DNA of 64,000 nt, taken from contig DUZQ01000004.1 in assembly GCA_013349435.1 (NCBI GenBank), positions 1 to 64,000 on the forward strand, read 5' to 3'. The notes under the pieces were generated by a model that was not told where the DNA came from, made no database searches, and saw only the letters and a program-made list of their open reading frames with translations. Below, in pieces: positions 18,121 through 24,364 of this stretch. Origin of the DNA: Planctomycetota bacterium. GTDB taxonomy: Bacteria; Planctomycetota; Phycisphaerae; Sedimentisphaerales; Anaerohalosphaeraceae. The stretch's first letter is position 1; each line of letters starts with the position of its first letter. A program made the translations under genes and the position numbers.

Positions 18121-18462
18121 CTAACTTAGGGCGGCTTCGGCGGGTTCTTTTTTGAACGACTCAAGCGACCTGGGCTCTGCGACCTTTCTGTAGCCCAGCG
18201 CCTTTATGACCTCTAAAACCTCCGTCCAGGTGGGAAACGGTCTTTGATTTGCCTTTTTATATGTATCAATTGCCATGAGAAACTCGAACTGCTCATCGGT
18301 CATTTGACCTTCTTCGGCGGCTTTTCTCTCATCACTTCTGCGCCGGCCGGGCCCCCTGCGCCGGTCGAGACCCAGTCGCCTGTCAAGACCCAATCGCCTG
18401 TCAACGGTGTACTTTCTGCGTTCGATGAAGCTGCTGTCTGATTTACTGTTCTTTTCAGCCAT
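18121..18462 (-). CDS. Small Arg-rich DRR-repeat protein
   Basis: A 113-residue protein of unknown function. The N-terminal third carries a charged tandem motif of seven residues, DRRLGLD repeated, then RRRGPGRRR (about residues 20-45). The C-terminal part (about 55-95) looks like a small helical domain ([26 protein letters not shown] in the region 54-79). Proteins with repeated DRR motifs recur in planctomycetes as far as I know, but no role is established. ATG 18462 has GAGGG upstream and is preferred to an ATG five codons earlier. A nucleic-acid- or membrane-binding role is guesswork. Confidence 0.7.
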
Positions 18463-18523
18463 TGGCCGGACCCTCAAAGATTAACTACCCCAAACTCGTG
18501 ATAAGAACGTAAGAGTAATCCCT

Positions 18524-18853
18524 TTAGAACTCGTCATAGACCTCATTGTCATCTTCGAAATCTTCGGTCATATCCTCCTGCTCCTGAAAGGCCATATCGT
18601 AAAAGTCGGTGTATGCGCCCTGTGATTCAATCAGGACATGAGCTTCGTCCAGATGATCCTCGGGCACCATAACGGCGATACCCGGAAAACCCGAGGACGA
18701 CTCCGGCTGCGCCTTTATTACAGTGGGAATATCGTCGTCAATTAACATTTTCTTGTATTGCTTGGCCAGGTCCATATCCTCGGCAAAGGCCACCGTGACA
18801 AACTCCTTCAACGGTGTCCTTGTATTTCGTTTTTTGTTACGACTATTCGCCAT
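18524..18853 (-). CDS. DUF2007-like small signalling-type protein
   Basis: A 109-residue protein. A basic N-terminus (NSRNKKRNTRTPLK) precedes an alpha/beta domain with the pattern VTVAFAEDMDLAKQYKKML..IPTVIK..GIAVMVPEDHLDEAHVLIE, which resembles the DUF2007/putative signal-transducing family. The tail is very acidic (about 88-109: Glu/Asp-rich). ATG 18853 follows GGAG at nine bases; an upstream ATG at 18877 lacks one. The next gene downstream (18121-18462) runs the same way, 61 bases away, so the two may form one unit. Confidence 0.75.
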   Translation of the reverse strand: MANSRNKKRNTRTPLKEFVTVAFAEDMDLAKQYKKMLIDDDIPTVIKAQPESSSGFPGIAVMVPEDHLDEAHVLIESQGAYTDFYDMAFQEQEDMTEDFEDDNEVYDEF

Positions 18854-19169
18854 GCCATCTTCTCCGTTATACTTCAAAATACCGATTCTGTGAGATAACC
18901 ACTTTGTGGTTCATCGTCAAAAGGCCACCTTACATTAATCAAAATTGCCGCAACAGCTCCACCAAAAGCTTATTTCGTGAGCCACGTATCTAACGAAAAT
19001 ACGGGATTTTCAGGTTATAGGTTCTGTAGGTGCAAAATTTTGTATTTTTCAACAATTTTTTTGTTGCAAAACCGGTTCCGAGTATTCAAAATACCACCAG
19101 AGTTGACGGCCGGTAAGTCCGTCGCAGGTCAGGTTTATGAAAACTTTATTTAACACGGAGGTACCGAAT
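18854..19169. other. Divergent spacer before the histone gene
   Basis: Spacer between the DUF2007-like gene (minus) and the histone gene (plus). It is AT-rich in the middle and holds an inverted repeat CAACAA-TTTTT-TTGTTG at 19050-19066, next to a near-palindrome TGCAAAATTTTGTA. TTGCAA (19064-19069) with CAAAAT 17 bases later is a possible weak promoter for the histone gene. It might also bind a dyad-recognising regulator. No gene is seen. Confidence 0.45.
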
Positions 19170-19367
19170 ATGGCAAAAAAGAAAGGCGGCAAGAAAGAGG
19201 TTCTGGTTGTGGCAAGTAAGGTCAAGGCGTATATCAAGAGCAAAGGCGCAATGACGTCTTCCGATGCGATTGGCTCCTTGAATGAGCATGTCCATGCGAT
19301 ACTTGACGCAGCCGTTAAGCGAACAAAAGCCAACCGTCGAAGCACGGTAAAGCCACAGGACCTGTGA
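19170..19367 (+). CDS. Bacterial histone-fold protein
   Basis: A 65-residue basic protein matching the bacterial single-histone-fold family exemplified by Bdellovibrio Bd0055: a Lys-rich N-terminus (MAKKKGGKKE), then VLVVASKVKAYIKSKG (helix 1), a longer central helix (about 28-52; SLNEHVHAILDAAVKRTK) and the ending RRSTVKPQDL, which parallels the loop and third helix of archaeal histones (compare RKTVKPED). It probably dimerises and binds DNA, possibly as a nucleoid protein. ATG 19170 has a near-perfect ribosome binding site ACGGAGGT, suggesting strong expression; an in-frame ATG 11 codons upstream is rejected. It is monocistronic. Confidence 0.85.
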   Translation: MAKKKGGKKEVLVVASKVKAYIKSKGAMTSSDAIGSLNEHVHAILDAAVKRTKANRRSTVKPQDL

Positions 19368-19391: not shown

Positions 19392-19438
19392 AGAGGCAGC
19401 GGCCGGCCCGTCAAATAAGGGACGGCTCGTCTGCCTCT
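19392..19438 (+). ncRNA. Structured region downstream of the histone gene
   Basis: AGAGGCAG (19392-19399) pairs perfectly with CTGCCTCT (19431-19438), and inside this CCGTC (19408-19412) pairs with GACGG (19421-19425). The resulting two-stage hairpin begins 24 bases after the histone stop codon. No T-run follows, so it is not a simple terminator. It may stabilise the histone mRNA or be part of a small RNA running to the terminator near 19620. Confidence 0.4.
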
Positions 19439-19777: not shown

Positions 19778-21073
19778 ATGAAAATATTTATGCTGGGTTG
19801 GGAATTTCCGCCTTTCATCAGTGGCGGTCTGGGCACAGCATGTCACGGCCTCACCAAAGCAATGAGTAAGATTGGAGTTGAGGTGATATTCGTTCTGCCA
19901 AAACCAATCGACCCGGCTTTCTCCACTCATGTAACAATGCTCAGTCCACTCCAGGCAAGAGGTGTGGATGATTTAACAACAGAACAATCCGAGCTGAAAA
20001 ATGTCCGTTTCCGCCCGATAGAATCTCCTTTGCAGCCCTATTCTACACCCGAATACTACCACAGGCACCTTGAAGAGATAATCAAACAAAAACGCCTGGT
20101 CGAGCTTGAGGAAATTGATACGACTTACAGTGATACCAGCCAGTATTGCGGCGATATGCTTACCGAGGTCAGTCGATATGCGGCCGCGGCGGTCAGGCTT
20201 GCACAACAGGAAGAATTTGACGTCATACACGCTCATGACTGGATGACCTACCCGGCCGGGATCGCCGTTGCGGCGGTTACCGGCAAACCACTGGTGGTCC
20301 ACGTCCATTCGACCGAATTTGACCGCAGCGGCGAGCATGTAAACCAGCCACTCTATGACATCGAGCGGCGGGGAATGCATGCAGCCGACAAAATCATCGC
20401 GGTCAGCCATTTAACCCGTAATATCATAATCACCCGATACGGTGTAAAAGGTGAAAAAGTCGAAGTGGTCTATAATGGCGTTGACAGGGAGCTTAGCAGT
20501 CTGAATTTTGACAAGATGGGGAGTATAAAAAGCGACGAAAAGATAGTGCTGTTTCTTGGCCGGATTACGATGCAAAAAGGCCCGGAATACTTTCTCATGG
20601 CGGCCAAGCAAGTGCTCGAGGTGATGGATAATGTGAAGTTTGTCATGGCCGGAGCAGGGGATATGATGGGCCGAACCATCGAAATGGCTGCTGCTATGGG
20701 AATCGGCCAAAAGGTTTTGTTCACCGGATTCCTGCAGGGCCAGGACGTCCAGAAGGTCTTTGAGATGGCCGACCTTTATGTTATGCCGTCCGTTTCCGAG
20801 CCTTTTGGAATAGCTCCTTTAGAGGCGCTCAATCACGATGTGCCGGTTCTGATAAGCAAGCAGAGCGGTGTAGCCGAGGTACTGACCCATGTTCTGAAGG
20901 TGGATTTCTGGGACGTAAAAGAGATGGCCAACAAGATTCTGGCGGTCCTGAGATACCCGCCTTTGCACATGACCCTGCGTGAGCACGGGAATTTCGAGGT
21001 ACGCAAACTGGCGTGGGAAGACACGGCCGCAAAGTGCCTGGCCGTATATGAAGGCTTAATGGTACAAGTATAA
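19778..21073 (+). CDS. GT4-type glycogen synthase-like glycosyltransferase
   Basis: A 431-residue GT-B glycosyltransferase. The N-terminus MKIFMLGWEFPPFISGGLGT carries the glycogen/starch synthase hallmark (E-F-P-P with a GGLGT loop binding the sugar nucleotide). VIHAHDWMTYPAGI, VHVHSTEFDR and the C-terminal EPFGIAPLEAL (E..FG..xLEA, nucleotide binding) complete the GT4 pattern. It probably extends alpha-1,4-glucan from ADP- or UDP-glucose, as in archaeal-type synthases. It heads a three-gene run with a GH57 enzyme (24 bases later) and a debranching enzyme, which supports the glycogen assignment. Confidence 0.85.
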   Translation: MKIFMLGWEFPPFISGGLGTACHGLTKAMSKIGVEVIFVLPKPIDPAFSTHVTMLSPLQARGVDDLTTEQSELKNVRFRPIESPLQPYSTPEYYHRHLEEIIKQKRLVELEEIDTTYSDTSQYCGDMLTEVSRYAAAAVRLAQQEEFDVIHAHDWMTYPAGIAVAAVTGKPLVVHVHSTEFDRSGEHVNQPLYDIERRGMHAADKIIAVSHLTRNIIITRYGVKGEKVEVVYNGVDRELSSLNFDKMGSIKSDEKIVLFLGRITMQKGPEYFLMAAKQVLEVMDNVKFVMAGAGDMMGRTIEMAAAMGIGQKVLFTGFLQGQDVQKVFEMADLYVMPSVSEPFGIAPLEALNHDVPVLISKQSGVAEVLTHVLKVDFWDVKEMANKILAVLRYPPLHMTLREHGNFEVRKLAWEDTAAKCLAVYEGLMVQV

Positions 21074-21097: not shown

Positions 21098-22306
21098 ATG
21101 CCATCTGTATGTTTCTACTTTCAGGTACACCAACCGTTCAGGCTCAGACACTACACGGTTTTCGACGACTCAACCTCGTATTTCGATGAGTTTAAGAACG
21201 CCTCGGTTTGCAGAAAGGTGGCAAACAAGTGTTATCTGCCGACAAACCGTCTTCTTCTCGATACTATCAGACGCTTTGACGGTCGGTTCAAGGTGGCATA
21301 CAGCATAACCGGCGTTCTGCTGGAGCAACTGCACGAGTACTGTCCGGAGGTTGTCAGCACGTTTGACGCCCTGGCGCAAACAGGTTGTGTCGAGTTTCTT
21401 GCCGAGACGTATTATCACAGCTTAAGCTGGCTGTATTCGCCTGAGGAGTTCGTCGAGCAAGTCGAAAAGCACATCGAAACGGTAGAGCATCTTTTCGGGC
21501 AAACCCCCCGTATTTTCAGAAATACCGAGCTGATATACAACAACGATCTGGCAAAGGCGATAAGTGCCACCGGAAGGTTTGACGCAATAATAGCAGAAGG
21601 CGTTGACCATATCCTTGGATACAGAAGCCCGAACTTTGTTTACCGGCCTCCTGATTGTGATAACCTGAAGCTGCTGCTGAAGAATTACGCCCTCAGCGAT
21701 GACATAGCGTTCAGGTTTTCAAATCGGAACTGGGCCGAGTTTCCGCTAATGGCCGAGAAGTACGCCAACTGGATACACGATGTAAACGGAAACGGAAATG
21801 TAGTGAACCTCTTTATGGACTACGAGACATTCGGTGAACATCAATGGCAGGATACGGGGATATTCAACTTTATGCAGCGGCTGCCTTATGAGATTCTCAA
21901 GCATCCCGATAACGACTTCAAGACGCCTTCGGAGGTAGCAGCCAGCTATGACGCAGTTGATACGGTCGATATGCCGCATATAACAAGCTGGGCGGATATT
22001 GAACGAGACCTGTCGGCGTGGCTCGGCAATGCAATGCAGTCAAATGCACTTCACGAGCTTTATCGCCTTGAGAAACGTGTAAAAGAAACGGGAGATAAGA
22101 ATACAATCAACGACTGGCGGAGGCTTCAGACATCGGACCACTTTTACTATATGTGCACAAAGTATTTTTCAGACGGTGATGTACATAAATACTTTAACCC
22201 ATACGACTCACCTTACGATTCTTATATAAACTTCATGAATGTACTGAACAATCTTACCAGTCGCTGTACAGGAGTCGATGCGGCCGAAGCAAAAGTGGCC
22301 GGCTAA
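21098..22306 (+). CDS. GH57 family glycoside hydrolase (alpha-amylase-like)
   Basis: A 402-residue family 57 enzyme. MPSVCFYFQVHQPFRLR contains the family's N-terminal HQP motif; FRNTELIYNNDLA includes the region of the probable nucleophile Glu; FMDYETFGEHQW carries the probable acid/base Asp motif. GH57 members cleave or rearrange alpha-1,4-glucans in the cytoplasm. Placed between a glycogen synthase-like gene and a debranching enzyme, it most likely trims or remodels glycogen. Whether it hydrolyses or transfers cannot be told from sequence alone. Confidence 0.88.
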   Translation: MPSVCFYFQVHQPFRLRHYTVFDDSTSYFDEFKNASVCRKVANKCYLPTNRLLLDTIRRFDGRFKVAYSITGVLLEQLHEYCPEVVSTFDALAQTGCVEFLAETYYHSLSWLYSPEEFVEQVEKHIETVEHLFGQTPRIFRNTELIYNNDLAKAISATGRFDAIIAEGVDHILGYRSPNFVYRPPDCDNLKLLLKNYALSDDIAFRFSNRNWAEFPLMAEKYANWIHDVNGNGNVVNLFMDYETFGEHQWQDTGIFNFMQRLPYEILKHPDNDFKTPSEVAASYDAVDTVDMPHITSWADIERDLSAWLGNAMQSNALHELYRLEKRVKETGDKNTINDWRRLQTSDHFYYMCTKYFSDGDVHKYFNPYDSPYDSYINFMNVLNNLTSRCTGVDAAEAKVAG

Positions 22307-22348
22307 ACACAAACGCCGGCGCCAGCGAGCCGGGCAAGGACCGTCGTG

Positions 22349-24364
22349 ATGCTGATGTCAAAGAACAGCCTTAGTCGCCGAAGTTTATCACTCACCCTGG
22401 AATCCTCAAGAATAGACAAACTGCTTGAGACCGAGTGGTTGTTGACCAACAGTCGCGGTGGTTTTGCATCCGGCACAATCGCCGGCTGCAATACGAGGAG
22501 GTATCACGGCCTTTTAATCGGCTCACTTGACCCCCCTGCAAACAGAATTGCCGCCCTTGCAAACTGTCATGAGGCAATAAAGATTGGCGGTCGTCTGCTC
22601 GAACCGGGGTGTTTTGAGTTTGAAGGCGGGCTTCGGGCGGATGCTGCGCAACTCCCGGCCAGGTTCAGCAGGGATATCGGTGCACATTTTGATTATGAGT
22701 TTGGATTTGCAAAGCTGACAAAATCCATATATCTGCTGCCCGACAGCGACATCGCCGCAATTGTTTACGAGTTTTCAGATATAGACGCCGAGTTTGACTT
22801 TTTCGTCCGCCCCCTGGCGGCAATGAGAGATTTCCATTCGCTTCAGAACTCCGATTCGGAATTTCTCTCGCTATGGAACGATTACGGAATAACCGTAAGA
22901 AGCCGAAGTACGCCCGGCTGTGAGCTTGTGCTCTACACCGACCAGATGTCTTTCGCCCAGGACCGGCAGTGGTGGTACAACTTCCTGTATCGAAAGGATA
23001 GACAGCGGGGACAGGACTACATCGAGGATCTGTGGTCACCGGGTTTTTTCAGATGCAGCGTAGATTTGCCCGTAAGGTTGGTCCTGTGGGCGGGTCTGAG
23101 CCGACAGGACGCCCCCCCCGATGTCCAGGACCTCGACATCGACATCGTCCTCGACAGTCTTATCCTCAAAGAGAAGGAATTAACCAGGGCCGCAAAACAT
23201 GACGACAAATACTCCGGGATACTTTATTCAGCCGCGGGCGAGTTTGTGGTTGAACGGCAAATTTCACACAGGCCCTGCACCACAATATTAGCCGGCTATC
23301 CCTGGTTCCTGGATTGGGGCAGAGATACTTTCATCGCCCTGCCCGGTCTGCTTTTATGTACCAAAAGGCTTAACGAGGCCGCCGATGTCCTGAAAACCTT
23401 CGCCGGCGCGGTAAACGAAGGGATGATTCCCAACCGTTTTGACGATTACGGCTTTGAGCCTCACTATAACAGTATCGACGCGTCCCTCTGGTTCGTTCAC
23501 GCGGCCTTTGAATATCTGCGCAAAAGCTGCGACGCCGCAACATTCAGTGTTGACCTGCTGCCTGCGGTAAGGTGGGTAACAGAGTCTTATCGTACCGGCA
23601 CAAGGTTCGGAATCCGCGAAGACTCCGACGGACTTATAACCGGCGGAAGCGCAGACACTCAACTTACCTGGATGGACGCTAAATACGGTGGTGTGGTGTT
23701 TACGCCGAGGCACGGAAAGGCGGTCGAGGTAAATGCTCTTTGGTACAACCAGTTGTGCAATCTTGCGGATTACTATATGGGCCGCAACGAAGATTTGGAA
23801 AATCGATACAAACAGTTGGCCCAAAAGGTAAAGCAAAGTTTTGTCCGAGTCTTCTGGAATGAAGAAAAGGGCTATCTAAACGACTGTATCGGCCCGGACG
23901 GGACGGTCGATGACAGCTTAAGGCCGAACCAGATATATGCGGTTTCACTGCCCTTTTCGCCCTTGGCTGACCGGCAACAAAAACGGGTGGTTGAAGTCGT
24001 AAAAAATGAGCTTTTGACACCATTCGGCCTGCGTTCGCTCAATAAAGGCGACGAGCGTTTTGTGGGCCGATACGAAGGCGACCAAAGGCAGCGTGATTCG
24101 GCCTACCACAACGGCACGGCCTGGCCTTATCTGATTGGGCCTTTTATCGAGGCATATCTCAGGGTCAACAGCTTCAGCAAACCCAGCAGAAGAAAGGCAA
24201 TGCGATATTTAAGGCCCCTGCTTAAACACCTGACCTGCGACGGCTGCATCCAAAGCATATCCGAGATATTCGACGGCGACCAGCCGCAAAGGCCGAGAGG
24301 CTGTTTCGCCCAGGCCTGGAGCGTCGCCGAGGTACTGCGGGCATACCTGTTGATTACTCATTGA
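22349..24364 (+). CDS. Glycogen debranching enzyme (amylo-alpha-1,6-glucosidase type)
   Basis: About 671 residues. The N-terminal GDE_N domain (LLETEWLLTNSRGGFASGTIAG region, with NTRRYHGLLI) is followed by the (alpha/alpha)6 catalytic domain: GYPWFLDWGRDTFIALPGLL, PNRFDDYGFEPHYNSIDASLW (core DASLWF) and the AYHNGTAWPYLIGPFIEA segment near the end, all typical of GH133-type debranching enzymes. It removes alpha-1,6 branches from glycogen. Candidate starts are GTG 22346, ATG 22349 and ATG 22355; AAGGA lies upstream of all three. It is third in the glycogen operon, 42 bases after the GH57 gene. Confidence 0.92.
   Translation: MLMSKNSLSRRSLSLTLESSRIDKLLETEWLLTNSRGGFASGTIAGCNTRRYHGLLIGSLDPPANRIAALANCHEAIKIGGRLLEPGCFEFEGGLRADAAQLPARFSRDIGAHFDYEFGFAKLTKSIYLLPDSDIAAIVYEFSDIDAEFDFFVRPLAAMRDFHSLQNSDSEFLSLWNDYGITVRSRSTPGCELVLYTDQMSFAQDRQWWYNFLYRKDRQRGQDYIEDLWSPGFFRCSVDLPVRLVLWAGLSRQDAPPDVQDLDIDIVLDSLILKEKELTRAAKHDDKYSGILYSAAGEFVVERQISHRPCTTILAGYPWFLDWGRDTFIALPGLLLCTKRLNEAADVLKTFAGAVNEGMIPNRFDDYGFEPHYNSIDASLWFVHAAFEYLRKSCDAATFSVDLLPAVRWVTESYRTGTRFGIREDSDGLITGGSADTQLTWMDAKYGGVVFTPRHGKAVEVNALWYNQLCNLADYYMGRNEDLENRYKQLAQKVKQSFVRVFWNEEKGYLNDCIGPDGTVDDSLRPNQIYAVSLPFSPLADRQQKRVVEVVKNELLTPFGLRSLNKGDERFVGRYEGDQRQRDSAYHNGTAWPYLIGPFIEAYLRVNSFSKPSRRKAMRYLRPLLKHLTCDGCIQSISEIFDGDQPQRPRGCFAQAWSVAEVLRAYLLITH

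Follow-up and report, generated by a model that had tools for sequence, protein, structure and literature searches.

A Leptospira HLp-like histone of the FtF type encoded beside a glucan gene cluster in Planctomycetota

FtF histones are defined by a predicted torus tetramer, the conserved residues R48 and N52, and an RxTxxxxD motif; R48 and N52 are absent from bacterial dimers (Schwab et al., PMC11390915). HLp from Leptospira perolatii (PDB 9QT0, 9QT1, 9QT2; PMC12701072), an FtF histone, is the closest solved relative of the protein described here. Its tetramer wraps approximately 60 bp of DNA, and the DNA contacts in its structures are backbone-only and non-specific. Residues A13, S14, K15, K17, K21, T27, G29, T56 and T57 lie at the DNA, and the tetramer interface is made by R49, S52, N53, R55, T61 and F63 (Hu et al., PMC12701072). 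Planctomycetota are listed as FtF carriers (PMC11390915; PMC12701072), and persistent histone genes in the phylum were noted by Hocher et al. (PMC10627809). FtF histones in Planctomycetota are already known; it is the context features below, of locus and of genome, that we did not find in the papers searched. Our literature searches found no paper joining Sedimentisphaer* with histone, and a search on Planctomycetes histone with glycogen and CsrA returned nothing on topic among the papers listed, as judged by title.

The gene lies in a window of 64,000 nucleotides, which is the whole stretch of DNA that was analysed. It and its control region comprise the following features:

19064-19092, plus strand: promoter-like pair, a T-tract with TTGCAA (19064-19069), 17 nt, then CAAAAT (19087-19092); conserved in most relatives
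19093-19169, plus strand: inferred 5' leader of about 77 nt, without the upstream GGA element seen elsewhere in the family
19155-19162, plus strand: Shine-Dalgarno sequence ACGGAGGT, part of the conserved (C)ANGGAGG ribosome site of the histone family
19170-19367, plus strand: FtF alpha3-histone gene, 65 aa (basic tail 1-10, alpha1 15-24, alpha2 31-54, RxTxxxxD motif 57-64, truncated alpha3 62-64/65)
19393-19437, plus strand: nested inverted repeat after the stop, GAGGCAG...CTGCCTC around CCGTC...GACGG, with no T-run

The reading frame at 19170-19367 translates to MAKKKGGKKEVLVVASKVKAYIKSKGAMTSSDAIGSLNEHVHAILDAAVKRTKANRRSTVKPQDL, followed by a stop. That this 65-residue frame is a real gene, as first annotated, is borne out by homologues in the order whose differences fall mainly in third codon positions. 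Specifically, codon position 3 accounts for 69% of the base differences between close homologues, position 1 for 21% and position 2 for 10%, and nine columns are invariant in an alignment of 79 relatives; the gene is thus under selection. An alternative in-frame ATG at 19137 would give 76 aa. Because that start has no ribosome site, and because most relatives begin at MAKK with the same kind of Shine-Dalgarno sequence, the 65-aa form is the likely product. The source genome carries one copy of the histone and one of HU.

Sequence and profile searches and structure searches all match histones, and with the AlphaFold2 model and its structural comparison they support the single-domain bacterial histone fold proposed in the first-pass annotation. 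Searched against solved structures, the sequence matched HLp at 1.6e-19, HBb/Bd0055 of Bdellovibrio bacteriovorus (8FVX, 8CMP, 9EZZ) at about 1e-5, and HTkC of Thermococcus kodakarensis (9F2C) at 0.016; with the family profile, the search that had been proposed as a check, the values were 1.5e-27, 6.4e-12 and 5.5e-8, with HLp again the best. The AlphaFold2 monomer model, built from a 79-sequence alignment, has a pLDDT of 86.5, with low confidence in tail residues 1-7. Its alpha2 is short (31-54) and its alpha3 is a single turn, in keeping with the alpha3 of 3-4 residues and the alpha2 shortened by 4-5 that mark FtF histones. A Foldseek comparison superimposes it on HLp with a TM-score of 0.82, an rmsd of 0.8 Å and 61% identity; HBb (E 1.5e-3) and HTkC rank behind it. 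A single-sequence AlphaFold model was poor, with two helices, and was superseded by the alignment-based run. HTkC shares the alpha3 FtF fold, but it is archaeal and only about 30% identical.

General family databases were less informative. The Pfam profile PF00808 (CBF/NF-Y, archaeal histone) scored 14.8 bits, below its gathering cut-off of 21.4, so this profile by itself would not have picked the protein up. Nothing matched in NCBIfam, or in PHROGs, which gives no link to phage. We ruled out a DUF1931 pseudodimer histone (PF09123), as the protein is a single 65-aa fold with no PF09123 match at E <= 1; that profile scores weakly in 6 of the 79 relatives.

Hallmark residues can be compared directly, since numbering in the protein here equals that of HLp plus 2. 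S16, K17, R51, N55, R57, T59 and D64 (HLp S14, K15, R49, N53, R55, T57 and D62) are invariant in the 79 relatives. These include the FtF dimer-dimer residues R51 and N55 (R48 and N52 in HMM numbering) and all three defining positions of the RxTxxxxD motif, here R57-S-T59-VKPQ-D64. Together, R51, N55, R57, T59 and D64 are the marks of FtF tetramers and of the loop clamp. The HLp counterparts retained are R51, N55, R57, T59, D64, A15, S16, K17, K19, K23 and T29. Among the tetramer, dimer and DNA residues of HLp, S52 is replaced by A54, T61 by Q63, F63 by L65, G29 by S31 and T56 by S58, with further replacements of K54 by R56 and R59 by K61. The likeness to HLp therefore extends over fold, length, the short alpha2, the one-turn alpha3, the RD clamp, the R/N/R tetramer residues, most DNA-contact residues and a basic flexible tail, at about 60% identity; the three interface substitutions at A54, Q63 and L65 set the two apart. 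The lysine-rich start, first read as a hint of DNA binding, is a variable basic tail, a trait familiar from bacterial FtF histones: tails in the relatives span 3-38 residues, and in most of them Lys and Arg make up 25-60%. Tails are generally absent from archaeal FtF histones. The protein has each FtF feature of sequence and fold that we examined and is a genuine bacterial histone of the FtF type, most like HLp, for which we infer the torus tetramer itself.

In the order (Sedimentisphaerales-like), a large group of mostly uncultured planctomycetes, 121 of the 148 genomes sampled have a homologue, including 59 of 66 good genomes, and 160 of 392 genomes across the phylum have a match. Named relatives are mostly metagenome-assembled genomes of Sedimentisphaerales, Phycisphaerae and Planctomycetota, which suggests an origin of the window in that order, possibly close to Anaerohalosphaeraceae; no match was labelled as another order of the same class, although other classes do match. 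Four contigs labelled as Nitrospira, Kuenenia or Actinomycetes assemblies (L049, L071, L085, L090) carry the same histone type; they are possibly mis-binned or mislabelled, or reflect transfer. HU accompanies the histone in the order, being present in 65 of the 66 good genomes, whereas Leptospira has none (PMC12701072). Since HU is present, the main architect of the nucleoid is not necessarily the histone. One genus, g54, has apparently lost the histone: it was not found in any of eight genomes checked (G069, G075, G087, G102, G106, G120, G123, G138), even by profile search, the sole match at E <= 1 being a weak partial one (E 0.12) in G075 inside a 2705-codon frame. All eight have two to four HU matches. 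Thus the histone would not be universally essential in the order. An FtF histone that persists across an order beside HU, with at least one genus that seems to have lost it, offers a natural comparison for learning what such a protein contributes where chromatin is built on HU.

The neighbours of HLp in Leptospira are SMC, MAP and DUF350 genes. Here the histone adjoins a glucan cluster, and the conserved neighbours are listed below with counts over only those loci that have enough flanking sequence:

18121-18477, minus strand: 118-aa protein of no known family, start uncertain (TTG); 63/76 loci
18524-18877, minus strand: DUF2007-like protein, just under the Pfam cut-off; divergent neighbour, 61/77 loci
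19778-21073, plus strand: GT4/GT5 glycogen-synthase-like glycosyltransferase; downstream neighbour in 62/76 loci, all on the same strand
21098-22306, plus strand: GH57 alpha-glucan enzyme; 57/70 loci
22346-24364, plus strand: glycogen debranching enzyme (GDE_N + GDE_C); 52/68 loci

In most loci of the order, then, the histone stands upstream of the three same-strand glucan genes with the DUF2007-like and small proteins on its other side. The 118-aa protein, divergent from the histone, contains repeated RRLGLD units. Beside homologues from other classes, within flanks of about 1.5 kb, the glycosyltransferase was found in 0 of 16 cases and either small gene in 0 of 17, so the linkage appears to be characteristic of this order. 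Plain synteny may account for it, and on its own it does not count as evidence that the genes share a function.

How the protein meets DNA is where our reading departs from the first-pass annotation, which had Bdellovibrio in mind: the bacterial histone stands, the Bdellovibrio kind does not. A bacterial-dimer histone like Bd0055/HBb, bending or coating DNA as a dimer, would share the alpha3-histone fold and the K-rich alpha1, HBb is the second-best match, and Planctomycetota are among the reported carriers of bacterial dimers too (PMC11390915). However, HLp is far closer in the sequence, profile and structure comparisons, by many orders of magnitude in the searches, and the tetramer residues R51 and N55, missing in bacterial dimers, are invariant here. 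We consider a dimer of this kind very unlikely. We give even less credence to a protein that uses the histone fold for local regulation, for instance of the adjoining glucan cluster, in place of a general nucleoid protein. Its deep linkage to the GT/GH57/GDE cluster in the order fits such a role, and HU could cover the general one; but HLp contacts DNA non-specifically through the backbone, the very strong Shine-Dalgarno sequence suggests high output, and homologues in other classes of the phylum have no glycosyltransferase neighbour (0/16).

We favor instead, with a probability of roughly 0.88, an FtF alpha3-histone forming a DNA-wrapping tetramer, as an abundant general nucleoid protein beside HU; wrapping, abundance and any essentiality are read across from HLp and Leptospira. 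By analogy with HLp, in which it has been shown, two copies would pair by the histone handshake; R51, N55, R57 and the C-terminal turn would then link two such dimers at either end, giving a torus-like tetramer. The wrapped DNA, about 60 bp long, would be held by non-specific contacts from A15-S16-K17 at the end of alpha1, K19, K23, T29, R56, T59 and K61, with the lysine tail perhaps contributing loose electrostatic contacts. This is the mode expected from the invariant R51 and N55 and the closeness to HLp. Neither the end-on coating reportedly seen with Bd0055 nor the bending later reported for HBb is expected for this histone.

Expression probably proceeds from the gene's own promoter and strong ribosome site. 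In most relatives, some 105 nt ahead of the ATG, a T-tract and TTGCAA are followed by a spacer of about 17 nt and then by CANAAT or a TAATAA-like element; the leader beyond them is about 75 nt long. A sigma-70 scan did not call the conserved pair here, which we read as hexamers too far from consensus for that scan. The GGAGGT core (19157-19162) lies 7 nt ahead of the ATG, and the very strong ribosome binding site first annotated holds up across the family: GGAGG precedes 84% of histone genes, while for the remaining SD-bearing ORFs of these loci the figure is 11%; the corresponding values are 100% and 42% for ANGGA at the ribosome site and 75% and 4% for CANGGAG, all uncorrected for relatedness.

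ANGGA, placed over a ribosome site, is the established core of the sites that CsrA binds, and both the source genome and 63 of the 66 good genomes have CsrA. We therefore raise, as a hypothesis and a rather unlikely one, that CsrA controls histone translation in the order by binding the ANGGA that overlaps the ribosome site together with, in many species, a further GGA element of the leader. Among the homologous leaders compared (L002-L112), one group has an upstream GGAA[C/T] in 32 of 37 cases against 3.5 expected from shuffles, uncorrected for relatedness; as that element served to define the group, the count is informative only through its surplus over shuffles, and then weakly. In the other group, the leader has an upstream ARGGAU in 14 of 33 against 1.2 expected, again uncorrected for relatedness. 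The source gene's leader has no clear second GGA element. If CsrA control were true, nucleoid packing would be tied to carbon status at a locus fixed beside glycogen genes; the fixed linkage and conserved leader are in any case concrete handles on regulation.

A hairpin in the leader at 19093-19169 is possible. Searching Rfam with the leader turned up nothing beyond chance matches below threshold, and RNAalifold recovered a consensus structure for neither of the two leader groups. Folded singly, the leaders were just slightly more stable than shuffled sequences (mean z -0.8 and -0.7), and hairpin pair counts in group B were barely above shuffles. Given these results, we do not claim a conserved RNA structure. 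At the other end of the gene, a terminator scan did not call the inverted repeat at 19393-19437, which is possibly the 3' end of a monocistronic transcript.
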